DNA from: Castanea sativa
Lineage: Eukaryota > Streptophyta > Magnoliopsida > Fagales > Fagaceae
Reading direction: 5' to 3'
DNA length: 64,000 nucleotides
NCBI RefSeq assembly: GCF_040712315.1
Contig: NC_134015.1
Location: 44,351,464-44,415,463, forward strand
A program made the translations under genes and the position numbers. Below, one piece after another: positions 33,666 through 60,689 of the stretch. The notes beneath the pieces were generated by a model. The model did no database searches. It was not told the origin of the DNA and saw only the letters and a list, made by a program, of their open reading frames with translations. Position 1 is the first letter of the stretch, and the number at the start of each line of letters is the position of its first letter.

Positions 33666-34300
33666 TGTAGGGACATTGGGTCCAATAATTTATAAAGGGT
33701 GGCCCAAGAATATCTTTTGGGCTAAAAGCCCAATCCGAGGATATCAAGTGATCTGAAGGTGTGTGAATGTACCTCATAAAGAAAATACTAGGTAAAAAAG
33801 CGATAGTGTCTGAATAAATATGTCCGAGGAAGACTGTGTCCTCAGATAATAAAGCCGAGGTAATAGAAGGGAATGTTTAATATCCCTAAGCTATGTTATA
33901 GAAATTCCTATGATTTCGGGAAGACACGGTACACGTGGAGGATAATAGAAAGGGCGGTGGAATATCTAGGATAAAGCTGCTACCACCACCCCCGCATTAA
34001 AGACTCTGCAGCTAATATGCTAGCCGCATTAATGGAGAAATGGGACCTGAGCATGAGGTTTGAAACTTGGCCCCTGTCTCCAGAAGACTTCAGGGAAAAT
34101 GGATGGGACACGTATCTAATCCAACATTATAATCATGAGGTGGAAGATGAGAAAGGGAAAAGGAGGAAGTATAAATGAAAGAAGGGACCTTCGGAAAAGG
34201 AGAGGCTTTCTTTGGAGAGAAAAGAAAGAATAGTATATGATAAATCTGACTGTCCACAATTGTAATCTATCTTGAGAAGCAGTATTATAAACTATCCTCG
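33666..34300 (+). repeat. Element B 5' LTR, 3' end deleted
   Basis: Begins TGTAGGGACATTGGG and aligns with the complement of the LTR at 55651-56492 up to the TATCCTCG at 34300. There it jumps to a gag-internal sequence corresponding to about 21246 of element A. The rest of the LTR and the primer site are lost. Confidence 0.88.
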
Positions 34301-36191
34301 AAGTCATTCACGAGGAAGTAGGAGTCATTCACGAGGAAAATACCAAAGCCATGCAGAAAAAAATTGACATCCTAAAAAGGAAATTGCGTCATAAAAGGCA
34401 AAGGCGAACTCCTTCTGTCTCCGATCCCTCTTCGGAGGGTTCTAGGGATGACAATTACAGGCAAAGATCCAAAACTCCCCTAGATGAATCTTTCTCTTAT
34501 GAGGAAGACAACCTGCATGGGCGGCAGGGTAAAAACTATTCCTCTAGGGGCTTGGGAAATATGCTATGGGTAGGGCATTGCATCAAATCTCCAGGTCACC
34601 CTTCACACGCAAGTTGGAAGAAGGGAGGCTACCTCAGCGCTTCACACAACCGGCCTTCACTATTTATAATGGCCGAACGGATCTTGTGGAGCATATGAGC
34701 CATTTCAGCCAAAGGATGGCAGTACATTCCAAGAATGAGACTTTGATATGCAAGATTTTTCCCTCTAGCTTGGGACCCGTGGCCATGAGGTGGTTTGATG
34801 GCTTGAGGGCAGGCTCTATCAATTCTTTCAAGGAACTTACTAGGGCATTTGGCTCTCGTTTCATCACATGCAATAGAGTTCCTCAGCCTTTAGATTCATT
34901 ATTATCAATGGCCATGAGGGAAGGGGAAACCCTAAGAACGTATTCAGACAGGTATTGGGAGATGTTCAATGAAATTGACGGAGACTTCGATGATGTGGCG
35001 ATAAGGACCTTCAAGGTCGGCCTACCTACGGAGCATGACTTGAGGAAATATTTGACGAAAAAGCCTGTCAGGAGCGTACGTTGGCTCATGGATTGCATCA
35101 ATGAGTACAAAAGGGTTGAGGAAGATCAGCAGCAAGGAAATGATAAGGCGAAGGTTATCTCTCAGGAGAGGAGGGATTTCAAGTCGGATAGATACAACAA
35201 CAGACCTGGAAGAGATTTTTTCAGCTAAGTTGGTCCTACCGTCCCACTGGTGGTCAACACCGTTTTCAAGGAACCAGTGCAACAGCTGTTGGAGAAAATC
35301 AGGCATGAGTCATACTTCAAATGGCCCAATAAGATGGCAGGGGACCCTTTGAGACGCAACCAAAATCTTCATTGCCATTATCACCAGGAGAGGGGTCATA
35401 CCACTGAGAATTGTCGGACTCTGTGGAATCATTTGGAGCAATTGGTTAAGGAGGGAAAGTTAAAGCAATTCCTATATCAGCCTAATGGGCAAGGAAACCA
35501 CTCAGGGGCGGCAAACCACAGTGGCCCTTCATCAAGGCCTCCTCTAGGTACAATCAATGTTATTTTCGCTGCACCTGGAAGGACTGGCTCAACCCCTTCT
35601 AGGGTGATGTCTGTAGCTCGAACTTTCGCCGAGGAATCAAGGGATCAGCCGAAGAGGATTAAGGCGAATGTCCTACCAGTTTTGGGTTTCTCGGAAGAGG
35701 ACAAAATCGAGACTATCCAACCACATGATGATGCCTTGGTTGTTACCCTAAGGATAGGGAATTACGATGTGAGGAGGGTAATGGTCGATCAAGGTAGTGG
35801 CGTAGATATCATGTACCCTGACCTGTTTAAAGGGTTAAGTTTAAAGCTTGAAGATCTTATGGCTTATGACTCACCCTTGATAAGCTTTGAGGGAAAGACT
35901 GTCATACCAAAAGGGAAAATTAGGCTGCCTGTACAATCAGGCCCAGAAGTGGTAAACGTAGATTTCATCGTGGTAGACGTCTATTCTCCCTATACAGCTA
36001 TTGTGGCAAGACCTTGGTTGCATGCTTTGGGTGCCGTTTCCTCAACCTTGCATGTCAAGGTTAAATTTCCTTCTAGAGATCAGGTGGTAGAGCTGCTTGG
36101 GAGTCAATCTGTGGCTCGACAGTGTGTCACGGCTGCAATTCTACATCAGTCTAAACCGAAGTCCTCGATCTCGGCTAACAGAAAGTCGTAG
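34301..36191 (+). pseudogene. gag-pro: Element B gag-protease pseudogene
   Basis: Aligns with A gag-protease from AMQKKIDILKRKL onward. A one-base deletion near 34560 and a stop at about 35226 break the frame. Gag (GPVAMRWFDGL, GDFDDVAIRTFKVGL), the zinc-knuckle segment (CHYHQERGHTTENC) and the protease segment (VDQGSGVDIMYPDLF) remain. The terminal UAG is placed as in A. Confidence 0.9.
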
Positions 36192-36197
36192 CAATCA
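36189..36197 (+). promoter_or_regulatory. Candidate leaky stop UAG-CAA-UCA in element B
   Basis: TAG CAA TCA in frame between protease and reverse transcriptase, exactly as in element A at 23140-23148. The preceding residues differ (SANRKS here, SANGEA in A), so the conservation is of the stop context. Confidence 0.7.
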
Positions 36198-38280
36198 AAG
36201 TCTCTAGCCACAACTGAGGTACCCTCGGTAGAAGAACCTCCATGTGAAGAACTGAAAAAGGTTCTTATAGACGATGACCCTGAGAAATTCTTTCAGGTGG
36301 GGGTTCAATTGCCACAGGAGGAGAAGACAGAGCTAATTTTGTTTTTAAAGATAAATATAGATGTATTTGCATGGAATGCTTACGAAGCCCCTAGGGTTGA
36401 TCCGAGTTTTATTTGTCATCATTTAAATGTCAATTCAGCTGTGGTACCGAGGAGGCAACCACCTCGATGCTCCTCGAAAGAGCATTCTGAGGCTGTTAAG
36501 GAGGAGGTGCTCAAACTCAAGAAGGCGGGTGCTATCGAAGAAGTTTTTTATCCTGAATGGTTAGCTCATACAATGGTGGTAAAGAAGAAGAATGGGAAGT
36601 GGAGAGTTTGTGTGGATTTCATAGATTTAAACAAGGCTTGTCCCAAAGATTCTTTCCTAATGCCTCGAATCGATCAGTTGGTGGATGCTACTGTTGGGCA
36701 TCCTCGGATGAGTTTTCTTGATGCTTTCCAAGGTTATCACCAAATACCTTTAGCTGTGGAGGACCAGGAAAAGACTGCATTTGTCACTCCTACAGGAAAT
36801 TATCATTATAAGATAATGCCCTTTGGTTTGAAGAACGCAGGGGCTACCTATCAAAGGATGATGACTAGGATGTTTGAGCCACAGTTGGGAAAAACTATCG
36901 AGGTATATGTGGACGACATGATGGTAAAGAGTATAGTGGTTTCCACGCATTTGGAAGATCTGAGCAACACTTTTCAAACGCTGAGAAAGTACAAATTGCG
37001 ACTCAATGCCTCTAAATGTTCTTTTGGCGTGGGGTCGGGCAAGTTTCTAGGCTATATGGTAACTCACCGGGGAATTGAGGTTAATCCTGCTCAGGTCAAA
37101 GCCATTAGCAACTTACACCCACCTCGGAATCCTAAAGAGGTTCAGAGGCTAACAAGAATGACTGCTGCCCTCAACCGATTTATTTCTCGGTCCGCGGACA
37201 TGTGCAGACCTTTCTTTCAGTTGTTAAATAAGTGGAAGGGTTTTGAATGGACCGAGGAGTGTGCGGTGGCTTTTCAACAGCTTAAAGAATATATCTCACA
37301 ACCACCCGTTATGTCTCAACTAGAAATTGATGAAGTTCTGTTCGCGTATATTGCAGTAGCTAATCATGCAGTTAGTCTGGTTCTTATACGGGATGATGAT
37401 AATGTACAGAGGCCAATTTACTACGTGAGCAAGTCTCTACATAAAGCCGAGGTGAATTATTTACCGTTGGAGAAAGCAATCCTAGCAGTGGTGCATGCTA
37501 CGCGAAGGCTTCCCCATTACTTCCAGTCTCATACAATTGTTGTCCTAACACAACTCCCTCTTTAGTCTATACTTCGGAGTGCGGACTATACGGGAAGAAT
37601 TGCCAAATGGGGAACTGTCCTAGGGACTTTCGATATCAAGTATATGCCTTGCACCTCTATAAAAGGGGTAAGTCATTACGGATCTGGTGACGGAGTTTGC
37701 TGAGCCCTCATTAGAAGAGTATATTAAAGGATCAGGCATGGATAAAAAATCAATTGGCATGATTTCGTACAAAGAGCCTCCATTGTGTAAAGTGTATGTT
37801 GATGGAGCAGCAAATCAAAGAGGATCTAGTGTGGGGCTAGTTTTGGTATCCCCTGAGGGAATTACTTTTGAGAAATCTTTAAGATTGGGGTTCTCGGCCA
37901 CCAACAATGAAGCGAAATATGAAGCCCTCCTCGCTGGAATGAACATGGTTTATAAGATGGGAGGGAAGATAGTATAAATGTTCTCGGATTCACAATTGGT
38001 GGTAGGCCAAGTGGAAGGGAAGCTAGAGGCAAGAGATTCAAGAATGCAAGGATACCTAACCTAGGTCAGGTATATACAATCCAAATTTGAGTCTTTTTCT
38101 TTATTACATGTGTCCAGGTGTGGGAATACCCATGCTGACTCCTTCGCCACATTCGCAACATCCTCGGCGCAAAGCCTACCTCGAGTCATTCTTGTTGAAG
38201 ATCTGTGGAAACCCACTGGGAAGAGTAATAACGCCACTCGAATTCTTCAAATTAGGATAGGGCCTAGTTGGATGGATCCA
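36192..38280 (+). pseudogene. pol: Element B reverse transcriptase and RNase H pseudogene
   Basis: 36297-37565 is open for 422 codons with VVKKKNGKWRVCVDF, LDAFQGYHQIPL, EVYVDDMM and the first RNase H domain, intact where A is frameshifted. A TAG at 37563-37565 and further lesions (about 37660, 37975, 38064) break the second RNase H domain, still visible as VYVDGAANQRGSSVGLVL and HADSFATFA. Confidence 0.9.
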
Positions 38281-39510
38281 ATTGTGACGTTTCTCAAAGA
38301 TGATATCTTGCCTAAAGAAAAGTCCGAAGTAGATAAGGTTCGTAGGAAATCACCTCGGTTCTGGCTGTCCGAGGATCAGAAATTATATAAGCACTCTTTT
38401 TCAGGACCATATTTGTTATGTATGCACCTAGAAGCAACGGAGTTACTTTTAGAAGAGTTGCATGAAGGGATTTGCGGAAGCCACACTGGAGGAAGGTCTT
38501 TAGCTCATAGAGCCCTTACTCAGGGCTATTGGTGGCCCAATATGCAAAGAGAAGCACAGGATTATGTGAAGAAATGTGACCAATGTCAAAGATTCGCTTC
38601 TAACATACATCAACCAGGAGGTGTTCTTAATCCTCTGTCTAGTTCTTGGCCTTTTGCTCAATGGAGCTTGGACATTGTTGGACCTTTCCAAAAGCAGCAG
38701 CTAATAGGCGGTGGCTCCTCGTCGGAATGGATTATTTCACTAAATGGGTTGAAGCTGAGCCATTATCAAATATCAGAGACATGGAAGCAAAAAAGTTTGT
38801 ATGGAAGAACATTGTCACCAGGTTTGGAATCCCTCATACTCTCATTTTAGATAACGGTCTACAATTTGATAGTAAAGCCTTTAAAAGATACTGTTGTGAT
38901 TTAGGCATCACGAATAGATATTCCACTCCAGCTTATCCTCAAGGGAATGGGCAAGCCGAGGTCGTCAATAAAGTGATAGTTAATGGGCTCAAGAAAAGGT
39001 TGGGCGATGCTAAGGGAAGATGGGTGGAAGAACTGCCACACGTCTTGTAGACATATCGAACTACACCACGAAGGTCCACAGGAGAAACACCCTTCTCCAT
39101 GACTTATGGAGCCAAGGTAGTAATACCTTTAGAAACTGGGTTCCCAACACTAAGGAAGAACTCCTTCACTCCAGACAGCAATGATAATCTATTGGAGAGA
39201 AGTCTAGACTTAGTTGAAGAACGACGAGAGAATGCCATAGTTCAACTAGCTTATTATCAACACAAACTCAAGCAGGGGTATGATTCTCATGTAAAGCTAC
39301 GGCCTCTTGCACCTGAAGACTTGGTACTGAGGAAAGTTTTGGGTACAACAAAGAACCCAGCATGGGGAAAACTGATGCCCAACTAGGAAGGACCTTATCG
39401 TATTACCTCAGTCGCAGGCATAGGGGCTTATAATTTGGAAAATCTAGATGAATATGTTGTACAACGCCCCTAGAATGTAAATAACCAACGAATGTACTAT
39501 TATTAAATGA
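38281..39510 (+). pseudogene. int: Element B integrase pseudogene
   Basis: Integrase in two overlapping frames: the HHCC domain (HEGICGSHTGG ... CDQCQRF) up to 38690, then a frameshift, then the core (GMDYFTKWVEAEPL, LILDNGLQF, PQGNGQAEVVN). Stops follow at about 39048 and 39384. The second catalytic segment has LDN instead of SDN but keeps the aspartate. Confidence 0.88.
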
Positions 39511-39559
39511 AAGGCACTTCGGCCATTTTTACTGACACTATATTGCGTTCATTATCTTC

Positions 39560-39960
39560 ATTTGTCTAAATATCAAATTGAAGCTTGGTATGCCTGGATC
39601 CTCGGACCACATACCTCGTCTAAATTGATATTTTTATCAAGTGTTAGATAGAACCTTAGTTATGTCCGGTCCTCGGATCATCTACTTTAGGGAAATTAAC
39701 ATTTCAGTTCTTTTCATTAAGTATCAAACTGAAGCTTGGTATGCCTAGATCCTCGAACCACGTACCTCGTCTAAATTGATATTTTTATCAAGTGTTAGAC
39801 AGAACCTTAGTTATGTCTGGTCCTCGGATCATCTACTTTGGAGAAATTAACATTTCAATTCTTTTCACTAAGTATCAAACTAAAGCTTGGTATGCCTGGA
39901 TCCTCGGACCATATGCCCCATCTAAATGGATATCTCACTAAGTGTTGAACAGAGCCTAAT
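39560..39960 (+). repeat. Tandem array in element B
   Basis: Roughly two and a half units of about 150 bp related to the 153-bp units of element A, each with TTGGTATGCCT and tcctcgga motifs. Fewer copies than in A. Confidence 0.85.
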
Positions 39961-40360
39961 AACGTTTTGGTCCTTAGACATGCCCCATCTAAATGAAATT
40001 CAACTACGTTCAATCTGTGTATCTTGAAGTCTCCCTGAGATAGTGATAAATGGATGGAAATCCATGAGCAACACTTAATGCATTTGCAGACATATTGAAC
40101 ATGTTTATTGCCTAATTCAATCCAGGTTGCTGCCTTAGATTTATTAACTAATAAGGGTAAAAGGATTACTGTTCTAAATATAACAAAACAAGTATGAAGT
40201 AGTATAATCAAGGCAAAACAAAAGCAAAAACATCAAACAAAGGAGGTAAAACTTGTGTTTTCATTAAATTCAAATTTCTTTGAAATTACAAAATACTTGC
40301 GAGTTGTCAAAATTACATTAGGTAGAAATAAAGGAAAGGCTAGAGAAAAGAGGAGAACAG

Positions 40361-40797
40361 TCATTGCTTCAACTTTATCTTCAAAGGGCCTTTGGGGTCT
40401 TCTGGGAGCTGAGGTTGCGCCGAGGACTCAACAACTATTCCTTTGCCTTTTGGATCATCCTTCAAGGTTGTTAGATTTGTTTGGTCACCCTGCTTGTCCT
40501 TGGAAGAGTCTTTGGGGTCACTTAAGGGCTGTGTATCCTCTAGTGCCTTTCCTTCTATTGGATCAGCTAGCTTTAGGAGTTGACCTTCAGCAAAGGTAGA
40601 GTCTTCAGCTATCTCACTTTCTTTTTCCTCAGATACTTGTAGGTCAGCATCATCATTGACTTGAGGAAGGTTAGAGGCTCGAATGGCTGGAGGGAAGTAA
40701 ACACTCTCTGCCTTCCAAAGGGTAGAAGAAGCCTCAACCCCAACTCGGGAAAGTGCCTCGTTCCACACTTGGAGACAGTAATGCCTGCATACCTCAT
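40361..40797 (-). pseudogene. Element B antisense gene, C-terminal part only
   Basis: Minus-strand frame matching the end of the antisense gene of A: WNEALSRVGVEASSTLWKAES, PPAIRAS, an acidic stretch and the identical end DPKGPLKIKLKQ. Upstream it is cut at GAGGTATG, the inversion breakpoint. A two-base difference from A near the break shifts the frame. Confidence 0.85.
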
Positions 40798-40800
40798 TTG

Positions 40801-42655
40801 ATAAGAAAATATTATTTTATTTATTGGTTAATATTTTGGCTTAATTAATACTATTGGTTAAAATTTAGGGGTCTTTTTTTCACTTGGGGCCTTAGGCGGC
40901 CGCATCAATGGCTTATACCATTGAGCCGGCCTTGATAAAAAACTTTTGAAAGAAAATGGAAAGGAAAATATATTTGAAGTGTATTTAGTTGGATAGAAAG
41001 GAAGAAAAATAAATGGTAGAATCTAGGCGTTTTCTCCTTAGACCCACCAACATGTTTTCTCTCCAAAATAGAAAGAAAACTAAGTGGAGATGATTTTTTT
41101 TTTTTTTATTGACAAAAATGCTCATGTGCATGTGCACATGGGCTTCTTCAAAGTTGCCTTTATTTTTTTTTCTTCTCCCATGGGCAGTAACTTTTTTTTT
41201 TCTTCTTTCTAGACAACATTGCCTTTTTTTTTCCTCAACATACACAAAAATCATTAGTGAGTTGATCCTCCACACACGTGCCGATGGATGTACCTGAAGA
41301 ATAAAAGAGAAAAACCAATCAAAGGGCACCGATGGGGTACCAGCCAAAAACCCTCCAAAGGTTAAGTCAGTGATAGAAGAATCACCATGAATTCAAGAGT
41401 GCAAAAGCTAGGGAGAATTCACGTACCTTGAGAAGGTTAGGGTTTGGGGTTTGAGCTAACCCATGTCCCTTGATACGGGGGAATTCCCTTGTAGAGAGAA
41501 GGATACCAATATATTTGGGATCACTTCTCCATATATAGGAGACCTGATCGTGTGGTAGGGTCTTTAGTCGTGACGTGCAAATAATTTCCATGTATGGACA
41601 TATGAGTGGACCTCACGTGAGTTCCATGGGAAGCCCTAAGGTGATGGGTTGTTGGGATTGGGGGTTGATTGTCAACCTGGATCTGATGGCCCATGGGATC
41701 AGTCATCCCTTTGGGATTGGTTTAAGTGTAAGGCCAATGATCAGACGAGGAAGATTCGGCATGTAAGGAAGGTTCGGCACCCCATGTTGATCAATAAAAA
41801 ATTATCCTCATCATTTCCTATTCTCTTTTTTTTTTTCTTTTGATTTTCTAGGCCTGGATGTGCCTTTCTTCTTCTTCTTCTTCTTTTTCCCTATTCTTTT
41901 GATTTTTTTAGGGCTTGGGTGTGATAGTTGTTGTTTTTTTTTTTTTTTAACTAGACATGATTTTTTTTTTTGGGCATGATTCTTATTTTCTTAATAAATT
42001 AGGGCGATTGCTTTTTTTTTTTTGTTATTTGTCACTTGTTTTAAAAAAATTGGGCATCATTCTTTAACAAAGGTATATGAGTAAATTTATTCAAACTCAT
42101 TTTTTTTCATTCCTGCACTTTTCCACTCCCAACCAAACAAAAATGAGAGAAAATAGAATATTTTTTATCCTCCCACTTTTTCATCATCCCACTATTTTCT
42201 ATCGTCTCACTTTTCCATCATTCTCGCCAAACGGATCCTTAATCATGTAGGGTACCTTATTCCCTCGTAGCCTTCGGTAAATAATAAATGAATAGTACTA
42301 CACATAAAAATGTACAATTTTATGCTACAACTCACAATATATATTATGAACTTGGGACCTGGCTTACACCGCGATAGAAAATATCACGAAACAAGTGTTA
42401 TTAAGAAAGTTACAAGTAACAAATTGTTGAGTTTGAGTTTGTAAAAAAGTGTTATTAAAAATTCCAAGAAAATTTTTTTATATTGAAAACAATTTTTTTT
42501 TTTTTTCGGATATCAACAACATCTGCATTGGTGGATTTACACGCAAGAGCACCTGACTTGCGAAAATAGAAAAAAAAAACTATACTTGAAAAAATAATTA
42601 TATATCTAATTATTTTTAAACCAACCCGTCTTGTCTATTCTAAAAAAATAATAAT
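40801..42655. other. Intergenic mosaic right of element B
   Basis: First DNA of the inverted segment. Contains T-rich low-complexity DNA (41100-42080). At 41385-41800 a stretch reads on the minus strand like the promoter side of an LTR (a CTCCTATATATGGAG box at about 41526-41540). No gene is supported. A 120-codon minus-strand frame at 40985-41347 is rich in Lys and hydrophobic residues and looks like chance. Confidence 0.45.
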
Positions 42656-42659
42656 AATT

Positions 42660-43079
42660 AGGGTAAATTACATTTTACCACTCTAAACTATACTCCTAAT
42701 TATACTTTACACTCTAAACTTTATGCACATTTTGCACTATAAACTATGACATTTGTTACACTTTGCACCTTAATGTTAAGTTTGCCGTTAACTTAGATGA
42801 AAAAGTATGACATCACGTGAAAACACTCAATTGCCCATTTTTTCTCAACTTTTTAAAAAATAAAGAAGAAATTACACTTTACCACCCTAAATTATACTCT
42901 CAATTACACTTTGCACTGTAAACTTTAGATTTCCATCCAAGTTAACAACAAACTTAACATTGGGGTGCAACATGTAACAAGAGTTATTGTTTAGGGTGCA
43001 AAATGTGAATTTGAAAGGTTTAAGGTGTAAAGTGTAGTATGGAGTATAGTTGTGTGTGGTAAAGTGTAATTTTATCTTA
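42660..43079. mobile_element. MITE with TTACACTTTACCAC-type ends
   Basis: The left end (aattacattttaccactctaaactatactcc) and the complement of the right end (aattacactttaccacacacaactatactcc) match over about 40 bases. A further internal copy of the end motif starts at about 42872, suggesting a nested or duplicated structure. Flanks match in seven of nine bases (TAATAATTA, TTATAATTA), compatible with a Mutator-like element but not proof. Confidence 0.65.
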
Positions 43080-43394
43080 TAATTAAACATTCTAACTTGA
43101 GAATCTCAAGAATTCGGCTATAACAAAAATAGTATTGACCTCCTAAACATAATCTTTAGCCCATTCAATCAAAAAAGACAAATTAATAAATAAATAATAG
43201 AAACAATTAAAATTATCCCAAATAACAACGAAATAGCCTAATCAACCACTAGATATGCCAAACTACAACAAATGAACAAAATATTCAATAAAAAATTCTA
43301 TTAAAAAAAAAAAAAAAAACTCCTAATCATTCAGATTCATAACTTATTTGACTCATTTCATAAAAATAATCAATAATTTCATTTTTCCTAAAAA

Positions 43395-43396
<2 letters not shown>

Positions 43397-43438
<42 letters not shown>
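43397..43438. repeat. (GA)n microsatellite
   Basis: About 21 uninterrupted GA units. Confidence 0.95.
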
Positions 43439-43442
<4 letters not shown>

Positions 43443-43666
43443 GACTATGAGTTCTTGTTGGCAGTGTTAGTAGCTCTACTCTCCTTTGCTTAGTAGTCGC
43501 AGTAGCTCTGCTCTCCTCAGTGACTTGGCTCGCAGTCACAACATGTATCATTTGTTGCTCTCTACCTCTTTCTCTTTCTCTCACTTTCTCAAATTTTCTT
43601 TTATCATGAAATGATCTTTGATTGAAGATGTTTCCTTACTAGATTTTTAATTCAAAATCAATTCTA

Positions 43667-43852
43667 ATTGAATAGTCTTATAACCACAAACTATTTTATA
43701 ACATTTTTACAAAATGTTAATGTGGCCAACCTTTTACTGATTTTCATCTAGGTCCACCATTAATATCACTTTTTTATTTACCAATAATCACTCACTACAT
43801 TAGCAGTTTGAAAAATATGTTGTATCTTTAGCATTATTCATTATAATCTAAG
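43667..43852. mobile_element. Diverged small MITE
   Basis: Ends resemble those of the element at 9169-9347 (ACAAACTATTTTATAACATTTTTAC on the left, TAGCATTATTC on the right). Strongly decayed. Confidence 0.4.
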
Positions 43853-43924
43853 TTAATATTTAAAGATTAATTAGGCTTTCTCTTGAGAATCACCTTATCG
43901 AACTTAACCAATTAAATTATAATT

Positions 43925-44703
43925 AGCACCTCCTCTGATGCCCCAAGTCAAGACTTGGCTGTTTTGCAACAATAGAAATTCCAGCAACCTAGGGTACATG
44001 GACTAGATTGCTACGATCCCAAGGTGTACCTCTCTCACAAATTTGCCATGGACAGCTAGGTTGCTTATGCAAGAGAGTGAATGACGACTGTCACGGTTCC
44101 TTAGTGTTACCAAACAAAAGACAACTGGTTTCAAAAGGAAATGTTTCTCAAATACAGATATTAGCGGCGGCTGCTTCCCAGCCTCGCCAAGAGCCATGAA
44201 TCTCTAAGTATGCAACTATCATGGGCTTGGGAACCCACATACAGAAAGAGAGCTTGTTGAAATAATACAGGCAAAAGATCCCTCTGTCGTGTTCATAGCT
44301 GAAACATGGGCAAGTGAAGTAAGGCTAGATCGAACTCTCAGTACTATTACTTTTGACCAGAAGTGGGTAGTGCCAAGGATAACCTAAGGAGGTGGGTTGG
44401 ATAGAGTGGTAGTTGATGGGGATTCAAGCATTGTGATGTTAGGTTTGAAGTTGAAGGAGCAAGGTCTGGCATCTTAAGGTTTACTTATTTTGGATGCAAG
44501 TGGTTTTGAGAACCCCTTTTTTTTTTTTTTTTTCTCTCTCTCTGAATTATCCTACTCTCATGTTAAGAGGGAGGGTAACAAATTTGCACATTATTTGGAT
44601 AAATTAGCAATTAACTTTCCAGACAATGTAATATGGATGGAGGATGTTCCACCATCAATTTCCCCTTTTGTTCAGGCTGATTTGGCCATCGTTTTGGAAT
44701 AAA
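43925..44703 (+). pseudogene. LINE remnant: endonuclease start joined to RNase H end
   Basis: Around 44200-44400 translation gives the start of a plant LINE endonuclease (GLGNPHTERELVEIIQAKDP, VVFIAETWASEVRLDRTL). Directly after, 44400-44700 gives the C-terminal RNase H domain (VVVDGDSSIVMLGLKL, REGNKFAHYLDKLA). The whole reverse transcriptase between them is missing, so there was a large internal deletion or template jump. Several stops. A T-tract at 44516-44533 interrupts the RNase H part. Confidence 0.75.
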
Positions 44704-45125
44704 AGAATTCAATGTCTTCTTTCTCAAATTTTTTTTTTAATTTTATTAATTTTAGTCTTAAAAAAATAATCAATATTTATTTCCTTAATTAAATCTTACT
44801 TAATTCATTTATCATGGAAAATATTTGAATCTTGAATCAATCACAACTAGACTTAATTATCTTTTCAAACTTGAAAGGATTTTAATAGTTAAGACTTTCC
44901 TTTTAAAAATGCTTTTAGTTTTAATTCCAAATTAAATTTGAATTTCAAATGTTATGACTTTTAATTTAGGAAATATCTTATTTTAATGGCTTGATTACCT
45001 TCCTTAATTAATCTCTCAAAATTTTCGACCCAATTAATTAACCCTAGAATTAATCGAATGTAAAAAAAGAAGGAAATAAATTTATTACAAATGTTAATGT
45101 TTTGGGTATTATAGGTTTTGTTAAA
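44704..45125. other. AT-rich spacer without genes
   Basis: Nothing recognisable. Contains several tttaattt-type tracts. Confidence 0.5.
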
Positions 45126-46303: not shown

Positions 46304-46326
46304 AATTAATTATTTTCTTCTAACTT

Positions 46327-47413: not shown

Positions 47414-47540
47414 AAAATCTTTAGAGTATCATATAAAATGCGTTTAGTCACGTCCGGTTGAAAGTAACTAAGTTTTCCAGGATGCATGAGAACTGAGAGA
47501 GTTTAAGTGTGTTCAGTTACTATATGAGTTCTTAACACAC

Positions 47541-50476
47541 TGTTTGGGGGCCTTTTTTGGTTGTTTGGCCATATGTGGTCCTTTGGAGGGGTGACCTTGC
47601 TAGACCCAGGTTCGTTTGGGGAGTTGCGTGAACTCAACATTGAGCCACGTGGTCCAATGGCTACTGGCGTATTTTTAAGCCTACAAAACCATTAAAGCCA
47701 AAGTCTAAGAATCATGATAATGGTTGAATAAATATATAATATGTGTTTGATATGATAGCTTTGATTAGTAGTTGTAATAATAGTTGAGATAAAGTAGTAT
47801 TTATTTAGAGGTAAAGTAATCATGTACTCAATGACGTAAATTTAAAGGTATGGAAGCAAAGTCACTTATCTTTATATGGTTTATAAAGGTATGGAAGCCT
47901 TTCTTGTGAATAGTGTTGCTTTCCATAAGAAGGGATTTTGTATGGAGTATTTGTGCCTTCTAAAAGAAGGGCTTTATGTAAGATGGATTTGTGCCTTCCA
48001 TAAGAAGGGCTTTGATATGAGATCTTGGTGCCTTCTAGGAGAAAGGCTTTAAAATTAGAAGTTTGTGCTTCCATGAGAAGGGTTTTTAGTATGAGTGTTT
48101 AATATCTCTAGAGAAGTGTGGAGATGGTAAAAGATATAGATGTTTTGTGGGATGTAGTATTTGTAATATGTATGATATATGGGAGTATGAGAGATATGGA
48201 GGTTAAAGATAGTAAAAACATGAGATTATAACTGCTGGAGAAGTCGTAGAGATTGCTTTCCTAGAGAAAAGGTTTCGTAAGAGAAGAGTACGAAGATATG
48301 TTTAGGTATTTGGAGATAGGAGCAGTAAGATAGATGTGTTTTCTGAATATGGAGAGTGAGAGAATGAGTATAAGGGGGTAATAGTGTTGTAGTATGTTTA
48401 GCAATGTTGTTGGGATTTGCTGCTGGGATAGACAAGAGCTTATAAAGAGCTCATAAGTGGAGAGCAATGGAGTATTTGAGAGCTAGGGGCATGCCCTTAG
48501 AGAGAGTATATGTAGCTTAGAGAGAGTATATGCCATAAGTAGTGAGTCATTTGGTAGTATGGACAGTGAGAGAGAAAGTGTTTAGCAGGGCTGCTGGGTA
48601 TTTCTTCTTAACAATGGATGCGGGCTTATGAAGGCATTTTATGAGCTAAGGGCTAAAGAGTTTAGTTCCTCATTTTAGAAACTAAAAAACTCAAAAACCC
48701 AGAACTTCATTAAGAGCTTAAGAAGATTATTAGAGGGAGTGAGAATAGGAAGTTTTATGAGAGAGTTGTTCTTCTCCATTGGTGTCCCTTTGAGGTGTTG
48801 ATGAAGAGTTCTATTTAGCTGAGTTTAAGGGGGTATTTTAGTAAATAATATCAGCCAAAATCTGTCCCAACTAGCAATGAATCTTCAGAAACTCCATCTT
48901 AAGATTTGACCAAAAATGGTATGTTTAGCTTTAAGGTGTTCTTGTTGTTTTGGGAAAGAGCTGCTGGGGAAAAAGCAACAGAAGGTATTTTGGCAAGAAA
49001 AAGATAGTTACTTTAGTTGGTTTTGATTTTAGCCAAATGTGAAAAAATCAGTAATGCTAAGGCTACTGAGTCAACTGTTACATTTGTTCTGAAAAAGCTA
49101 TCCTAGTTATTAGGAAAAGCTGTGACAACTATCATGAGACAGTTGTGACAGCTGTCATAAGGCAACTGTTGCTCTAGGCAGAAGCAGATGAGGCCAGCTG
49201 GGTGATTTTAGACTGCTAGAGAGGACATTCAGCATTTATTTTATAGATTTGGCTGAAAATGTTAAGATCTCTTTTAAGGGTATCTTGCTATTTTGGGTAT
49301 ACCAGCTAGTTGCTGGGATTTCGGTATTAAATGGCTGATGATATCACTTTCAGCCAGGTGTCAAGTGCTAAATACATTGCTGGGGTTCTGCTGGAAATAT
49401 TTCCTTTTTTGGGTGTTTGTGTTTTTGGTCCAAGTTTCCATTACAACATGTTTTTAGCAAGTAATAGAAGAATTGATTGAAAATTAATGAAGTTTTAGAG
49501 ATCTAGTCAAGGTCTCATTGTGTTGTGACATAATCTTGGTGAGCAAGAAGAGTATTTAATGCTCTGCTCTGGTAGCTGGCAGAGAAATATATGGTCTGAT
49601 TGTGGCAGACAGCAGCTGGATATCAAAGATATCATGAATATTTTGTATATAATTGGAGATTAAAGATAGTCAATCAAATTAAGCCATGTGTTTGAGCTGG
49701 ATTTTAGCTGAAAGTAATAATAAGATTTATGTAGAATAATATAATGAAGTTTCCAAATTTGTATAGCAACAACTAGAGATTTAATGAATAGTTATTTGTT
49801 CAACATTTAAATGGCTGGGGATATTGAGTATTTTTCACATGATGAACTTTAAGTTTTAGAAAAAGAGTAATGGGAAATTTTATCATCTAAAGTGTTATGT
49901 GATAAGAAATGCTTACCATATATTATCCACTACACACGGACTCGTAAGAGTTCGAGGAGTTGGAGAAGACACGCCAAGCAACATGTCTCTTTTATCAACT
50001 TTAAATCGCTGGAGTTTTACTGAACATACCTCGTGGCCCTCCAAACCACAACTCCCAAAGTTTCCCTAAAGAGACTTATGAGCTTGGATCATAAGCCGAA
50101 AATGAGATGATGTACCTCGGGTTTTGTTGTCATTTTGTGTAAATATAGGCTGTTGTTGAGGAAACCGCTTGTCATGAGTGTAAGAGAGATAATATGCGCC
50201 GTGAGTTTTGATTCATTGCTTAAGCCCGATCCATATATTGATGTTGATGATGTCATGGAGTTATGATCCCAATTGATGAAGAGAAAATGTGGACCATGAA
50301 TCTGCCTTTTAAAGTAAGGATCTCGCGGGCCATGTGAGCCCAATCCATGTAATTGAATGAGATATGAGCTTATTTTGGGCTTTAAAAAGATTTACCCAAA
50401 AAATAAATAATATATTGATGTGGCATGGGATGCCAATGAAGTAATGCCATGTGAGCCGAAAAAAGAGTCCTCAACA
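47541..50476. mobile_element. LTR-like element of 2.94 kb (large solo LTR or LARD)
   Basis: Starts TGTTTGGGGG and ends CCTCAACA, that is with TGTT...AACA termini, flanked by the 5-bp duplication CACAC (47536-47540 and 50477-50481). It has no long reading frame and no LTR pair inside that I could find, so a solo LTR of an element with unusually long LTRs is the simplest reading. Strand cannot be set. It sits in unit 2 and unit 1 lacks it. Confidence 0.65.
47890..48090. repeat. Degenerate minisatellite within the LTR-like element
   Basis: About five imperfect units of roughly 40-45 bp sharing CTTCCATAAGAAGGGCTTT followed by a variable part. Confidence 0.7.
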
Positions 50477-50498
50477 CACACTTAACAAGAACTCATAT

Positions 50499-50647
50499 TG
50501 TGGGTTTCAGTTAGCTCAACTAATAAAGTTTCTGATGGTTGAATAAGAGATTTGAGATTTAATACCCGCCTACACCAAAAACCAATTGGTGTCTTGGTTT
50601 GATGATAAAGAGCATTATCAGGAGCGGATGCCGTATGTTGAAACAAA
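50499..50647 (+). mobile_element. tRNA-derived SINE, family S2
   Basis: A 149-bp insertion flanked by the 15-bp duplication AACAAGAACTCATAT (50484-50498 and 50648-50662). It shares GTTTCTGATGGTTGAATAAG and GATGATAAAGAG with the copy at 47257-47413. Confidence 0.92.
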
Positions 50648-50935
50648 AACAAGAACTCATATAGTATATGAGTTTTAAGGTCTTTGTATATGTTAACTTG
50701 GGTATAGAGAAATATATTCTTTAACATCGTTAAATATACTTGATTGCCCTTGCTTGGTTTTATTAGCCTAAACATAATACTTCACATGCATTTGTATATG
50801 CTTCATTGCTTAACATACTTTCTCCCATTTATTTATGCTTCATAGCTTAAATTATGCTTAAATAATCCATACATTAGACTATTATTTTTCTCATTAATTT
50901 TTTATTTCCATCATTCATTATATTATCTTTTACTT

Positions 50936-51262
50936 GCGCTCTGTTTGTTTCAGTAATGATATTTTCTAGAAAATAAGTCATTTTCCAAGAAGTATTTTCT
51001 ATAAAACTATCTCATTTTCCAATGTTTGGTAGCAATTTTAAATGAGTTGAAAAACAACCTCCTAACTTCCCTTAATTAGCTTATTATGAGATATAGTTGT
51101 TTTCCAAAAAAATTTAATGGAAAACAATCTCTAAAAATAAGTCATACTTTTTATGTTAACCAAAGATAGTTTTCCACTAACTCATCTTTTTTTATGCTAC
51201 CAAACACTAGAAAACATGGAAAACTATCTTTATACAAAGTTTTCCATCGAAGCAAACGAAGT
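50936..51262. mobile_element. Probable MITE with GTTTGTTTC-type ends
   Basis: The left side (ctgtttgtttcag ... attttctagaaaat) and right side (ggaaaactatctttata ... gaagcaaacgaag) are roughly inverted copies, in a form common in plant genomes. No clear target duplication. Confidence 0.4.
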
Positions 51263-51383
51263 ATTAGAAGAAAACGTAACTATAGTAGCCAATAGAAAAT
51301 CCATTAGCGTGATTACTAGACTTGGCTACCCCAAAGAATCCGGGTTTGGCTACTAATCTATCAAAACACAACATGTGTCATGG

Positions 51384-52294
51384 CCAGGGAAGTCTATTTC
51401 GTACCGTACCGGCCAGTACGGCCGGTATTTACCGTTCCGGTACCTTAGCCGGTACAGAAACAAGGTTGTTTCGTACCGAAAAATATACCAGCCCATACCG
51501 GGTCATTTCGGCCATACCGGAGGAAATATCGAATTTCGGCCGGTAAATGCATACCAGACCGGAAAAAGAAAAACGTTTCTTTGTCACTCTCACCTTCCAC
51601 CAGCGACGATCTCTACATTCTCGACCTCAAGTTAGGGTTGTGGACTGATTTGGGCTGCTACTTCATCTTCATCTTCATCATCTTCATCTTCATCATCTTC
51701 ATCTTCTTCTTCTCCTCTCTCTCTCTCTCTCTCTCTTTCTGGCCGTCTAACTTTCTTTTTCTCTCTCTCTTTCTCGTTTTTTTTTGAAACTTTTCTCAGT
51801 TTTTCAAAGCTCTCTCTCTGCCCAAGAAAAGACTTTTAAGATGTAAATAGTACCTAGTCTTTTCTTGGGCAGAGAGAGAGCTTTGAAAAACTGAAAAAAG
51901 TTTCCAAAAAAATTAAAATAAAGAAGTAAATAGTACCTTGCGTTTTGATTTTTTTCAAAGCATCAGAAGACAATATTTTGAATTGGTGTCACAATATTTT
52001 GACACATGGACTGTCATTTATTGAGATCAATGGGTGTTGGATTATTTAATAGTTTTTTTTTTTTGGCTTCCCACTTTTATATATTTATGTTTATGTTGAA
52101 AACTCCATCAAAACAATATAAAAAGTTTCCAAAGTTATATATTGAATTATTAGAAATATAGCTTTGTATATTGTATAAAATAGTAAAAAATAGTAGTAAA
52201 CTCGAAACGGTACACCAGTATTGACCAGTATCCGAAATATATCGTACCGTAAGCCAAACTGGTACAGCCTCTGGTACGGTATTGACTTCCTTGG
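51384..52294. mobile_element. DNA transposon remnant with GTACCG-rich ends
   Basis: A 911-bp element bounded by CCAGGGAAGTCTAT and the complement of ATTGACTTCCTTGG, with TCATGG repeated on both sides (51378-51383 and 52295-52300). Both ends are full of GTACCG/CCGGTA motifs (51400-51560 and 52200-52285). The inside contains a CATCTT microsatellite (51661-51712) and a long hairpin. No transposase seen; superfamily not assigned. Confidence 0.65.
51784..51906. repeat. Long hairpin with arms of about 50 bp
   Basis: Left arm 51784-51834 and right arm 51856-51906 are inverted copies with very few mismatches; a 38-base core is perfect. Loop of 21 bases. Transcripts would fold into a stem like a small-RNA precursor. 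Confidence 0.88.
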
Positions 52295-52568
52295 TCATGG
52301 CACAAAAAGACCTTGGAAACCTTCCTACCACAATAGTCCCAAAATTTCTGGAATCCTTCTATAGTGATTTCTTCCACAAACGTAACTTTCACATAATGCA
52401 AAACCTTTAGACTCTAAGGATCACCTTGAAGATTTGTTGTAGCGAACTCAATGGAAAAAATTCTTAGTGGTTTCAAAACAATCGAACAATCACTTTGTTT
52501 GGAATCACAAAATGAGTGGGTAGAATTTAAGGAATTTTCAATTTGGCTAAAAGAAGAAAATGCATAAC

Positions 52569-53606
52569 TAGACATGGCAATACGAGTCAGAAAATTATGA
52601 CCCGACCCGACCCAACCCAAAAATACCTGACCCGAACCCGATTTTTTGCGAGTTAACGCGACCCCGATAACCCGTGACCCGACCCGTTAAAAAAATTCGC
52701 TAAAAAAATATTTTAATTATGTCTTGATACTAGGTGCATAAGCACAAAGTACCTAAACTAATAATCAATATATCACAGAGAATGACTATATAATTCATCA
52801 AAACCATTTCTCAATAATAAAAAAAAAAAAAATCATCAAAACCAATAAGAGCTAGCTAGCCTAGCTTTAGTGCTTGCCATATTGCCTACAACACGTTACA
52901 CAAGGGCCAAGGCTGTCAAGAGTCATCAGTCAAGACAACCATTAAAAAAAATAAAAAAAAAAATCTCATTCAGCAGCTGTAGCATGTAGTCCATTGTCCA
53001 AACTCCAAAGGACCAAAGCCAAAGGCACATCACAAACAAATGAACAATGGTTATCAAAAAAAAAAAAAAGAAGAACAATGCGCAATGTACAAAGCCACAA
53101 ACGGCAAACCTGAAAGTTGAGTCAAACCAAACCACAAAGCTTCCTTTCCCAGTTAGTTTCTCTACTCTTTTAGTCTTAGATTTTGGCCAACTTGGGCTAC
53201 AATTTTCAAGTATGAATATTTGCAGTGCTGAATATTTGAAGATGTAAACTTGTAATTATATGCATTTTGATAGTGAACTATTAACATAGAAGACTTTTTT
53301 TTTCCATCATAAATTTATGACTATAAATAATTTTTGTCATGCTCAAAACTATCAGAATTGGAAGGATAATAAAAAGTGGCATTAAGTGCAATTCATTTGC
53401 TTAATTGATTTTATTCATTCTCTCTAAACAAGTTGTCATTGATTTGTTTTTGTAATTAAAAAAAAAAATTGTTTGAAAAATACGGGTCAACCTGACCCGA
53501 CCCGCAACCCAATTAACCCGTTTAAAAACGACTTGTTTTGACCCGCGACCCGTTTGACCCGCAAATCCGATTGACCCGACCCGACCCGCCCGTTTTGCCA
53601 TGTCTA
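52569..53606. mobile_element. Non-autonomous DNA transposon with GACCC repeats at both ends
   Basis: Begins TAGACATGGCAA and ends with its complement. Inside each end lie many copies of GACCC (left, 52600-52685; right, 53490-53590). GCATAA flanks the left (52562-52567, one base before the end) and the right (53607-53612). About 1.04 kb, no transposase frame. The ends and subterminal repeats suggest a hAT-like element. Confidence 0.75.
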
Positions 53607-53612
53607 GCATAA

Positions 53613-55113
53613 GGTATTCTCTGTGTTACTCTTTGTGTGACAGCTTTTTTCTCGCTCGAAAATGTATGCATTCAGTGGTTTGTATAGGTGAATAGAGTAG
53701 GTGCAAAAGTTACCATGAATCCTTTTCCAAATAGAATTAGAGTTCTGATTTCCGAAATCCCACTTGAGCTATAGCCTCAAGCGAGTGACAGGCAAGGTTT
53801 GGGCTGCAGTTTTGCTTGTGCAAATTCTATTTTGCTTGAGCGGAAACTCTAGTCTTCAATTTCTTTGAGATCTTCAATGCGACTCCTGATATACTTTTAA
53901 AATAAATCAAATACAACCAATTCTAAATATATGAGCTCAAATTTTGTTATGAAATTAGTCGATACTTTTAAAAACCTAACAAACCCCAAAGAGGGATTTT
54001 TCCTAGTCAACAACAATGATTTCATTTTGACTAAAGTTGAGTCACTCTGAAAAGGAGAAGAACATTTTTTTATAAAATATTTTACACTGAAAGAAACAAA
54101 TCTAAACTTCTAGCAACGTAACTCATGGAAATTTTCAGCGCTCTCAGGAAAGATACTTTTGATTAGTTGCCTCTCTGCTTTGGAAATTCTCTTGGATGAG
54201 ATTAATGGTGGAGTCAGGATGATTTCAGTTCAGAAAAGACAAGATTAAAAGTAAAAATAATTGTGGCAAAATATAGGACAATTGTGACAAAATGTGTATA
54301 TTTCTGTATGGTACTAGCGTTATTGATTTTCTCTACTACTCATAATAGATCACTTTAACAACAATAAGTCTAAAATTACAATTCTTTTACAAAATTTTTA
54401 ACAATTTCTAAATTGGCAAGTTCTAAATAGTCAAAAATTGTGTTAATAGTAGACCCAAACAACTTAAAAACTCAACAATAATAAAATTTGTTGTGATAAA
54501 TATTGTGTAAATTACATTTCTCCTTTAACAAATGTGAAAAAAGTTGTGTAGGTAACATTATTTATTGTTGAATAGCAGTGAGAAAGGTTAAAACGTTAAG
54601 AAGGCATGAAAACTTGTCAAACACATAAAACTTAGAGTTTTAAGTGGGACCATTGAACTTTGTTTTAATTATAAAATGACAAAAAAGTAATATGTGTTAT
54701 ATGGACGTATGAGCTTTTCATTTTGTAGAGACTTTCTCAGTTGCCCCCTCTCGCACCCTTGGCTTTGCCATTGGATGAACTTCATGTCCAGCTTCCTTCT
54801 CAAAAAATAAATAAAAAATAAAAAATTCATATCCAGCTTCAAAGAATTGGTTATGAAAAAGAAAACCATGGTCAGCTTTACACTTCTCATATTTTATAAA
54901 AGACAACATAAAATGTACCCACAAAGAATAGTAAAATTTGAATGTAACAAATCTCTTTATTATAAACTTATTTGAATAGAAAAATATTTAAGTTATTACC
55001 AAGTTTATTAAAAGAGGCTTACAGAATGGCTTGACAATAAAAATGATTAGTGTCATATTAATAATATAATAAGTAAATTTCTTAATAAATTTTATTTTTA
55101 AAAAATAAGGCTA
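53613..55113. other. Intergenic DNA without recognisable genes
   Basis: AT-rich. A decayed MITE-like piece may lie at about 54346-54535 (acaattcttttacaaaatttttaac on the left, gtgtaaattacatttc on the right). Nothing else supported. Confidence 0.45.
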
Positions 55114-55456
55114 CTACAAAAAGATAAATCCTCTACCAATTACCATCCCATTCATCCTCGACAACCTCACATGGCTGTTCGAATGTCTTGGCTTTGGCTC
55201 AGAGCATTGGTCATGGTGTAAAGTGAAGATTGAGGGAAGTAGAGCAAAATTCACTTCTGGGGTATTCTGAAGGTGTAACTTGGGCAACGAAAAAGGGGTC
55301 CAATACTTCAAAAGCGACCAGTTGGTTCACCAAACCCCGACCCAGTGTCACACGTTCTCTAGGTTCAAAGGGATCCAGTGCCCAACTACCGACTCCTCCC
55401 AGAATTGCATTATCGGAGCCGAGCCAGGAATGGCCGCTAGAGCAATTTGTGTTCAC
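55114..55456 (-). CDS. Unidentified ORF remnant
   Basis: Minus-strand open frames (55456-55211 and 55311-55114, different frames) with ordinary protein composition, for example GHSWLGSDNAILGGVG and FVAQVTPSEYP, in an otherwise AT-rich stretch with lower coding potential. The two frames may be one coding region with a shift. I recognise no family. It lies just outside the LTR of copy C. Confidence 0.3.
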
Positions 55457-55650
55457 CCTTAAGGTGCCAATTCAAAAATATAATAGACATATGTCAAATT
55501 AATTTTTTTTTTAATTAATAACACATTAGTTTGTAAGGTTAATTTAGTATAATTTACAACATTGTAACATTAAATTTTTTTTTTTTTATGTCTTTAAAAA
55601 TTGACAAATCAATTTTTAGATTTATGTAGTAATATGTATAATATACCTAA

Positions 55651-56492
55651 TGTAAGGACACAATTTGAGCTCCTAACCCACAATCAGAAGGGAAAGGGCT
55701 TGAAAGGCCTTTTTACAATAAATTTGTAGAGAGTGGGCTTGAAATCTAGATTCTAAAGGTGGTTAAACAACAAAGAAAAATGGGCTTTGGGCCCAATAGC
55801 ACAAATAAGGAGTTGTTTATAAGAATATGAATGAAAATTCCTCCTCGGACACAATCCGAGGATAGTTTATAATACTACTTCTCAAGATAGATTACAATTG
55901 TGGACAGTCAGATTTATCATATACTATTCTTTCTTTTCTCTCCAAAGAAAGCCTCTCCTTTTCCGAAGGTCCCTTCTCTCATTTATACTTCCTCCTTCTC
56001 CCCTTTCTCATCTTCCACCACATGGTTATAACGCTGGCTTAGATACTTGTCCCATCTATTTTCCCTGAAGTCTTCTGGAGATAGGGGCCAAGTTTCAAAC
56101 CTCATGCTCAAGTCCCATTTCTTCATTAATGCAGCCAGCATATTAGTTGCAAAGTCTTTAATGCAGGGGCGGTGGTAGCAGCTTTATCCTAGATATTCCA
56201 CCGCCCTTTCTATTATCCTCCACGTGTACCATATCTTTCTGAAACCATAGGAATTTCTATAACATAGCTTAGGGATATTAAACCTTCCCTTCTATTACCT
56301 TGGCTTCATTATCCGAGTACATAGTCTTCCTCGGACATATTTATTCAGACACTAGCGCTTTTTTACCTAGTATTTTCTTTATGAGGTACATTCACACACC
56401 CTTAGATCACTTAATGTCCTCGGATTGGGCTTTTAGCCCAAAAGATATTCTTGGGCCACCCTTCATAAATTACTGGGCCCAATGTCCCTACA
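55651..56492 (-). repeat. Element C 3' LTR
   Basis: 842 bp. Complement runs from TGTAGGGACATTGGG to TGTCCTTACA. Aligns along its first 635 bases with the truncated LTR at 33666-34300. Adjoined at 56493-56515 by the complement of the polypurine tract. Confidence 0.93.
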
Positions 56493-56772
56493 ATAGCCTC
56501 TTGAGATTCTTATTTCTCCAATTCGGGATGAAAGGAGGATCTCGACATCTGTCTCCTTTTGTCCTGCGGATATTTGGCAATATTGCTAACAAGGATGATG
56601 ATTTTTGAACTGCCCATCGCATGTTCCCGACATTTCGGCATGCGAAGCGTCCTTAAATTAAATTCTAGCGTCTTTATGTTCTCCACGTTCAGCGATGTGA
56701 CACGCATCCAACGGTTGAGGATTGCCCTTAGGCAGAGGCAAGAATTCTCCCGCTTCATAATTCCCAATGATA

Positions 56773-56780
56773 TATAAATA
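56773..56780 (+). promoter_or_regulatory. TATA box of the antisense gene, element C
   Basis: TATAAATA 284 bases before the start codon at 57064, matching the box in element A. Confidence 0.7.
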
Positions 56781-57063
56781 CCGATTTCTTTCAAATCCTC
56801 TCACACACCACAACGCTCCTATAACGTACCTGCCACATTTTGCCATCTACACGTGCTTTCTCATTTCACCAAATATCCTGGCCGAGGTGACTGTGCCTTC
56901 TTTTTTTGTTAAAGTAAGTTCTCCCATACTCTCTCCCTTTCTTATCAACTCTTTTTCTTTTTGTTTTTCTTCCTTCCCCTTTCTTTTTCTCTGTACTCCT
57001 TTATCCTCGGCTAGTCTGTTTTCTTAGTTTTTCTAACATACCTACACCCATTTTTTTCCAAAA

Positions 57064-59291
57064 ATGGGTAGATTTGCATCCCTAATGGATTCAAATGAAA
57101 AAATAGAGCAATTTAAGGCTAAATACCGAATTCCCTCGAGGGTATCTATTATGTACTGTACAGAAGAGGAGTATTTCGTAAAAAGAAAAACGGGAGAGGT
57201 AGTAATCCCGATGATTGCATTTATCGAAAGAGGGATGAGAATTCCCATGGGGACTGTCACTAGGGATTATCTTAGGGCTTTTAGACTAGCTCCTACCCAG
57301 TGTGCCCCAAATGTGTTTAGGATCCTAGGTTCCATAAATGCCCTAAATGAGAAGATGAACCTAAGACTCACTCATCACGATGTGAACTGGGTTATAACCT
57401 TCACTACCTAACGAAAAAAAGAAGAATATTACTTAAAATCTAGGCATCCAGCAGTTAGGTGAATTCAATGCCTCCCCGAATCCAATAAGGGTCTAAAAAA
57501 CGACTTCCTGATCATATCAGGAGATTGGCACGATGACTTACCCTGTCTGACAAGGGAGGGGACCCCAGGTGAAGTTTTGAATCTATCTAAAACCCTTAAA
57601 AACCATTCCTTTTACGTTTTTATCTATTCTTACCTTGTTTTCCTTCCTTTTGGACAATTTTGCAGACCCACACGCAGTGGATCGTCACCCTCACGCAGTG
57701 GATCGTCACCCTATCCTCGTTGATTTTGGGAGATTGGACAGAATTTTACAAACCGAAGTCTTTGTGCATACAGACGGCCAACTCCGAGCGGCTCATTTAA
57801 TCCTTGGTTACGATCCCATTTCTAAAGCTTTTCAGGCGCCGAAGTGTGTGATCAAAGCCAAGGACCCACGTCTTCCCCGGATAAGCGTTGTCGTTGAAGG
57901 TTTTCTGCTACCCGAGGGGCTCCTATTCCTTAGGGTACCTTGGTTACCCAACCCATGGAACCCCCACAACCCGTTCCGGAAGGGATTCCCCTAATCCCTC
58001 TTTCAACACAACATACATTTGGTGAAGCAACCTCTTCCCAACTCGGCATAAAGGAAGAAGAAGAGATTGTTGAAGTATCCGATTCTGAGGACGAGTTCAA
58101 GGTTTTTAATCAACCTCACTCCCCTGAAGACCAAGTTTCTATCCTCAGCACATCCTCTCAAACCCTGCAAGACATCATCCACCAACCTGATCCCATGGGT
58201 ATCCAGCGCAAGCCAAAGCCGAGTCTCAAAGATGTACTGGAAGCTTAAGCAGGGACTCAAGAGCTTCCTAAGGAACCTCGCACCAGGGTCCAAGATAAAG
58301 GCGCTGAAAAAGGCCCTGAATCTAGGCTCCCTCCTCCTCCCCCTCCTTCCCAATCTCAGCATACCAACCCGGCTAACCACAAAAGAAAACGGGACCAGGA
58401 AAAAGGGAAAGAAGTGATGGAAGGAGGGAAGGGCTCTCTTCTCAAGGAGCTTGAGATCGAAAAAGGAGGAAAACATGCTCGCACCGTGCAGACAAGGTCA
58501 GATAGACGGACCAAATCTCACGCGGCTACACACGCCCCAATCTGGGTCCCTGATATGACTATGGATGACCACGTAGTCACTGTTGACGCATCCATCAGGA
58601 ACTCTGATGAAGGAACCGCCGCTTGCGTAGCAGACGCATTGGAGCAAGCTTTGCTGTGACCCGAGGATATGGGTGAGCTCAGAAAAAAGAGAGACCAAAA
58701 TGTCTTCATGATTTTGAAGAAGGAGCTTGCCATGGTAAGCATCTCTTCCAAGCCTTTTTTACTTCTATTCCTGTTACTTTATAAAAATTGTAACTTTGTC
58801 TTTATTATATTGTTGTCTTCCATGCATAGGCTGTTTAGTCTGCTCATAGGGAAGAAGAGATCGTCATTAGCTCGTACAAGTCTTTAAAGGCTGAAGAATC
58901 AAGGCGTGAAAACGCCCAAAGGATTTTGGACCTACAAAAGAAAAAACTACAAGAGGTCACGGATAAACTTGCTAAGGCAGAGAGTGAGAAGTCCAGCTTG
59001 GATGCCGCTCTTAAAATAACTGTGAAACAAACCGAGGACCAAAGACTGCTGCTCAGGCAAACTGATGAGACCCTTGTTGCCGCGAGAAAGCTAATTGAGG
59101 ATCTTAGAAAAGATTTAAAGGAGTCTGAAAGGGTAAATGAGGAGGCCATCAAGACCACAGAAAAGGCCATCCAAGAAAAAGAAGAGGCTGAGAAGGAAAA
59201 AGAAGAGGCTGAGAATGCAAGAGACCGAGCTGAACAAGAAGGTTATGAGGTCGGCGTGAAGGAGATCACAGAAACTTTCAAGGCACAGGTC
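57064..59291 (+). pseudogene. Element C antisense gene, N-terminal and coiled-coil part, broken
   Basis: Exons 57064-57568, 57666-58734 and 58830-59291 match those of element A; exon 1 has the same length (505 bases) and all four splice sites are conserved. Start MGRFASLMDSNEKIEQF, then IPMGTVTRDYLRAFRLAP, the IVEVSDSEDE motif (58066-58095), DASIRNSDEGTAACVADAL and the coiled coil. Lesions: a pair of compensating one-base shifts near 57397-57416, stops at about 57462, 58246, 58657 and in exon 3 (about 58835), and a small duplication (HAVDRHP) at the start of exon 2. The C-terminus lies in element B. Confidence 0.88.
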
Positions 59292-59298
59292 CAAATGA

Positions 59299-60676: not shown

Positions 60677-60689
60677 ACCCCTCAAACTT

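Follow-up and report, generated by a model that had tools for sequence, protein, structure and literature searches.

Features of the locus

The window analysed here, a 64,000-nucleotide stretch of the Castanea sativa genome, includes a cytochrome P450 reading frame (positions 7096–8697) that is CYP86B1-like by matches. The encoded sequence shares 100% identity over 90% of its length with a Castanea mollissima protein and 89% identity with one from Quercus rubra. A frame at 16514–16978 has a weak ricin-B-type lectin match that lies just below the cut-off. Further along is a complete Retand-like element called A (20315–31721; 11,407 bp), which is bordered by GTTAG on both sides and carries gag, RT, RNase H, integrase zinc and integrase core domains in Retand (Tat-type) order. 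A comparison of its two LTRs gives 4 differences in 755 sites (K2P 0.005), and A is a recent insertion.

Two other sequences, called B and C, lie on opposite strands and are two parts of a single Retand-like Ty3/gypsy element. Their features are as follows.

33661–33665, plus strand: TTAGG, left copy of the 5-bp gypsy target site duplication.
33666–40796, plus strand: B, the 5′ part of the Retand-like Ty3/gypsy element, recognized by its match to A and to closer copies.
33666–34300, plus strand: 5′ LTR of B, shortened by a deletion of about 380 bp, as judged by comparison with A and with relatives.
55646–55650, minus strand: the second 5-bp copy of this gypsy target site duplication, reading TTAGG on this strand.
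55651–59292, minus strand: C, the 3′ part of the same element (remainder of the antisense-gene region and 3′ LTR), inverted, recognized from copies in relatives and from PF04195.
55651–56492, minus strand: 3′ LTR of C, 842 bp, with a K2P of 0.063–0.065 to the 5′ LTR of B.

B contains the 5′ LTR, gag, RT/RNase H and integrase zinc domains, tandem units and the beginning of the antisense-gene region, and together with C it amounts to 10,773 bp. As outlined in PMC11963269, Retand Ty3/gypsy elements carry tandem repeats between pol and the 3′ LTR in about half of clusters. B and C resemble the lineage, as portrayed there, in the long region between pol and the 3′ LTR, the tandem repeats and the antisense PF04195 (Transposase_28) ORF within this region, and the 5-bp duplication. 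The antisense ORF between pol and the 3′ LTR scores 26.5 bits for PF04195 in C (cut-off 26.2) and 21.7 bits, below the cut-off, in A. Unlike the lineage, the copy formed by B and C is split by an inversion and lacks about 380 bp that span part of the 5′ LTR and the beginning of the internal region.

This deletion, at about position 34301, took away the last part of B's 5′ LTR and the first part of the internal region, together with the probable primer-binding site, as judged against relatives; it is separate from the inversion. The sequence GTCATTCACGAGGAA occurs twice directly after it, at 34305–34319 and 34324–34338. Tandem Repeats Finder reports 2.4 copies of a 151-bp unit in B (39566–39933) and 5.1 copies of a 153-bp unit in A (26496–27271). 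The original prediction, which was made from the letters of this stretch, had called for both a 0.4-kb deletion and fewer tandem units in B than in A, and each is borne out.

The gypsy halves are joined elsewhere in the genome

An alignment of B plus the complement of C to A, put forward as a check in the original prediction, is continuous to within a few bases. Specifically, when the window is compared with itself, the match between B and A ends at B 40795/A 28215, and the match between C and A begins at C 59290/A 28220. The LTRs of A and C are separated by a K2P of 0.37, and A belongs to a subfamily other than that of B and C, so copies closer to B were used to define the breakpoints. The search covered 716 Mb in 13 contigs and returned 1,658 candidates, of which the best-scored 40, the window's own included, provided 39 other places (7 as longer loci and 32 as 400-base pieces). 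The two halves adjoin on one strand in all 39 of these copies, with a single base between them that is absent here. This arrangement sets the breakpoint at 40796 on B and at 59292 on C. The claim that B and C are complementary and meet at one point of the antisense-gene region therefore holds to within a 1-bp gap. The breakpoints first proposed, 40800 and 59298, were approximately in the right place, but they run slightly into the other element and have been corrected by 4–6 bp.

The TTAGG duplication that had been reported on both outer flanks is indeed present at 33661–33665 and, on the complement, at 55646–55650. As a control we used the LTR regions of 20 gypsy relatives, for 15 of which both outer flanks were readable. 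Exact 5-bp duplications are found in 12 of these 15 (E10, E16 and E18 are without one), and when the 5′ flank of one element is set against the 3′ flank of another, 1 of 210 comparisons gives agreement. Thus, the gypsy family of B and C makes 5-bp duplications with no obvious site preference. None of 35 other LTR outer flanks carries TTAGG, and no preference in target site was seen that might cheapen the TTAGG match.

LTR kinship agrees with a single element and proves little. The K2P that separates the two LTRs, given above, falls inside the 0.040–0.076 spanned by 17 control pairs. The best tree places the LTRs B5 and C3 as sisters (support 75/84, branch not starred), as does FastTree, where the support is 0.42 and 14 of the 17 control pairs are sisters. 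E05_5, which spans 336 columns only, lies at 0.053 from B5 and at 0.056 from C3, in each case nearer than these two lie to each other, and C3 has three LTRs closer than B5, E05_5 among them. With support that is moderate and other LTRs closer, the nearest-neighbour relationship was set aside as proof of one element. The substitution rate in grasses is 1.3e-8 per site and year, and trees may be slower; at this grass rate, the gypsy insertion would date back about 2.4 million years or more.

The other breakpoint splits a hAT-like MITE

A second mobile element is interrupted at the other breakpoint. It is a hAT-like MITE, about 633 bp long, and had gone unnoticed in the original prediction. Both of its pieces are identified from other genomic copies.

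40797–40934, minus strand: D-left, the left piece of the MITE, 138 bp, inverted.
40935–40942, minus strand: 8-bp MITE target site duplication, reading TTTTTTAT on this strand.
59293–59790, plus strand: D-right, the right piece of the MITE, 498 bp, uninverted.
59791–59798, plus strand: TTTTTTAT, right copy of the 8-bp MITE target site duplication.

Copies were collected with positions 59200–60600 as the query, keeping the best 40 of 3,440 candidates, the window's own included; nine loci were fetched in full and the remaining 30 as 400-base pieces. All 39 other places match from query position 93 (equivalent to 59292) at the earliest, most of them from exactly that position. In the nine fetched loci, the sequence before this point matches the complement of 40797–40934 at 89–99%, and the two pieces are joined over the full 138 + ~491 bp in every one. 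The pieces occur in order and on one strand in all 39 other copies, 37 of them within a 15-bp limit and most with a 3-bp overlap; in L073 and L086 the pieces are in order with small deletions at the join.

MITEs of the hAT type are expected to have 8-bp target duplications and CAGGG/CCCTG-like ends. The present element resembles them in its length of about 633 bp, its CAGGG...CCCTG-like ends and its 8-bp target duplications, and the window copy is unlike them in being split. Terminal inverted repeats, CAGGGCCGGCT... and ...AAGCCGCCCCTG, were recognized by eye in several copies. The aligned copies have CAGGG-like and CCCTG-like ends, which in the window copy are degraded to CAAGG...CCTA. Exact 8-bp duplications flank five of nine other copies, and the other four are without an exact 8-bp match. 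The sequence TTTTTTAT is of low complexity, with 21 plus-strand occurrences in the window, which counts against it as proof of an inversion. Because the MITE is split at the second breakpoint, its pieces are joined elsewhere and its 8-bp target duplication is found once per end, this breakpoint constitutes independent proof.

These data bear on the proposal that B and C are separate truncated gypsy insertions that are complementary by accident. A family numerous enough to give 1,658 first-look candidates would supply such insertions, and the kinship of the B and C LTRs is only moderately supported. However, the truncation points of B and C meet to 1 bp, their 5-bp flanks agree (a match with a chance of about 1 in 200 to 1 in 660), and matching MITE pieces with matching 8-bp flanks lie beyond both truncations. 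Two separate insertions, which the original prediction had named as the finding that would overturn it, are contradicted by these MITE pieces. The proposal requires four unrelated coincidences, and we assign it practically no probability.

Junction sequences and repair

The positions at which the two elements now meet can be specified almost to the base.

40796–40797, no strand: junction 1, gypsy to inverted MITE; TCA (40794–40796) fits either element.
59292–59293, no strand: junction 2, gypsy to the right MITE piece; one G:C base (59292) fits either element.
40797–59292, no strand: inverted segment, 18,496 bp, defined by the gypsy and MITE adjacencies in other copies.

Junction 1 reads CATACCTCATTTGATAAG, and junction 2 reads TTTTTCATTTGGACCTG on the complement. 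In relatives, the unbroken gypsy sequence is CATACCTCA-G-GGACCTG (three or more loci) and the unbroken MITE sequence is CTTATCAAATGAAAAAC. Three MITE bases are present at both ends, or up to seven if the shared bases are assigned to the MITE, and one gypsy base, or up to five, is missing. These scars fit a break with staggered ends in the MITE and an almost blunt one in the gypsy element, followed by filling and joining.

An error of assembly is another possible origin of such junctions, and the region is rich in repeats. The window is without N, and the junctions are clean to the base, with 3 bp of the MITE doubled and 1 bp of the gypsy element lost, which would make a flip during scaffolding an unlikely source. 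We therefore regard an assembly error as highly improbable.

Inversions have two standard causes according to PMC7584159, one of which is NAHR between inverted repeats. Here, however, the gypsy-to-MITE junctions share 1–3 bases only. No inverted-repeat pair across both breakpoints occurs among 39 self-matches of the window, and there is no similarity above 40 bits between 40796–55650 and 59291–64000, so no repeats that could have recombined were seen. NAHR is accordingly scarcely credible at this locus, and we infer that two breaks were repaired by end joining, not by repeat recombination.

A replication-based switch of template, rather than two breaks and end joining, might also have made the exchange. 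The 1–3 bp of microhomology and the short duplication are compatible with both mechanisms, and PMC7584159 raises the same ambiguity for a fly inversion, replication-based repair being able to leave scars similar to those of staggered-break end joining. However, the chestnut junctions contain neither filler nor extra copies, and both products are balanced. Template switching is thus an unlikely route, although we weigh it more seriously than the alternatives above. End joining at two breaks accords with the inversions with staggered ends treated in PMC7584159, whose scars those in chestnut resemble. Compared with those inversions, the duplication in chestnut is only 3–7 bp long and affects a single site of the two, and each break site is inside a mobile element, which makes the earlier state readable from copies in the same genome.

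Order of events and polarity of the inversion

The present order, in which B is followed by the inverted left MITE piece and C by the right MITE piece, is the one that a single inversion of 40797–59292 would produce. Both pre-inversion adjacencies are seen in the genome: for the gypsy element in 39 of 39 copies, and for the MITE in a further 39 of 39 that have its pieces ordered on the same strand, 37 of them within 15 bp. What is demonstrated is that both elements are split here and joined in copies elsewhere in the genome, together with the target duplications and the junction bases. Both insertions are older than the inversion; since the gypsy element and the MITE were whole beforehand, the inverted state is the derived one. 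The full history is almost certainly one insertion of each element followed by inversion of the 18,496-bp segment. The prediction that a single gypsy element was inserted and then split by an inversion of about 18.5 kb is therefore upheld by the gypsy evidence and, in addition, by the split MITE.

If this model is correct, a Retand-like gypsy element would have been inserted in plus orientation, duplicating TTAGG, and a hAT-like MITE would have entered elsewhere, about 14.9 kb past the gypsy 3′ end, duplicating TTTTTTAT. Later, two double-strand breaks would have occurred on one chromosome, one in the gypsy antisense-gene region and one in the interior of the MITE, and the intervening 18,496 bp would have been rejoined in reverse by end joining with 1–3 bp of shared sequence. 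This sequence of steps would divide both the gypsy element and the MITE in two and carry the paired target duplications to opposite ends. We infer a single event, in which the staggered MITE break was filled in, leaving 3–7 bp present twice, and 1–5 bp of the gypsy element were lost.

Events of this type are well known and ordinary; what is noteworthy is the quality of the evidence from a single genome. Calling a small inversion normally relies on a comparison between genomes, which leaves the direction of change uncertain. Survival of both old adjacencies in other copies of the elements means that one genome gives the inversion, its exact ends and its polarity. The same test, split halves on opposite strands together with matching target duplications, could be applied to whole plant genomes as a way of counting small inversions and the scars left by their repair. 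The position of both breaks inside mobile elements would be no surprise in a genome rich in them. It is distinctly doubtful that breaks in two silenced elements arose from nuclear proximity or a common cause of breakage, and that this is one of many chestnut inversions that can be read and polarized from a single genome.

Other repeats in the window

Two copia-type elements that are about 82% alike, with LTRs of about 150–170 bp, lie at the margins of the window: L009 (window −1756 to 2561) and L010 (60508–64946). L009 is bordered by GATGG on both sides, and the sequence at 50912, read by eye, corresponds to its empty site; L010 has a copia reverse-transcriptase domain and no exact duplication was seen at its ends. 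Diverged copies of another repeat lie in opposite orientation at 2562–4383 and 46679–50912, and the latter is uninterrupted where the former holds the copia element. We considered whether the chain of minus-strand matches formed by these sequences (1–2561 with 63114–60508; 2562–4383 with 50912–46679), which is collinear only in the present order, argues against the inversion, and rejected this. The chain is not counter-evidence, because 1–2561 and 60508–64946 are separate copia-type elements and the match ends at an element end by chance.

Among stop-to-stop frames of the inverted segment, a scan by which spliced genes would be missed, one of six is above the cut-off, a reverse-transcriptase-like remnant at 46358–46627, and a second match is below it. 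The segment also contains two possible elements with long terminal inverted repeats (45137–46292 and 42665–43072). Imperfect palindromes that match their own complement at 88–90% are present at 9455–9733 and 51778–51912. Finally, positions 48001–50000 have a strong GC skew of 0.376, unlike the remaining window.
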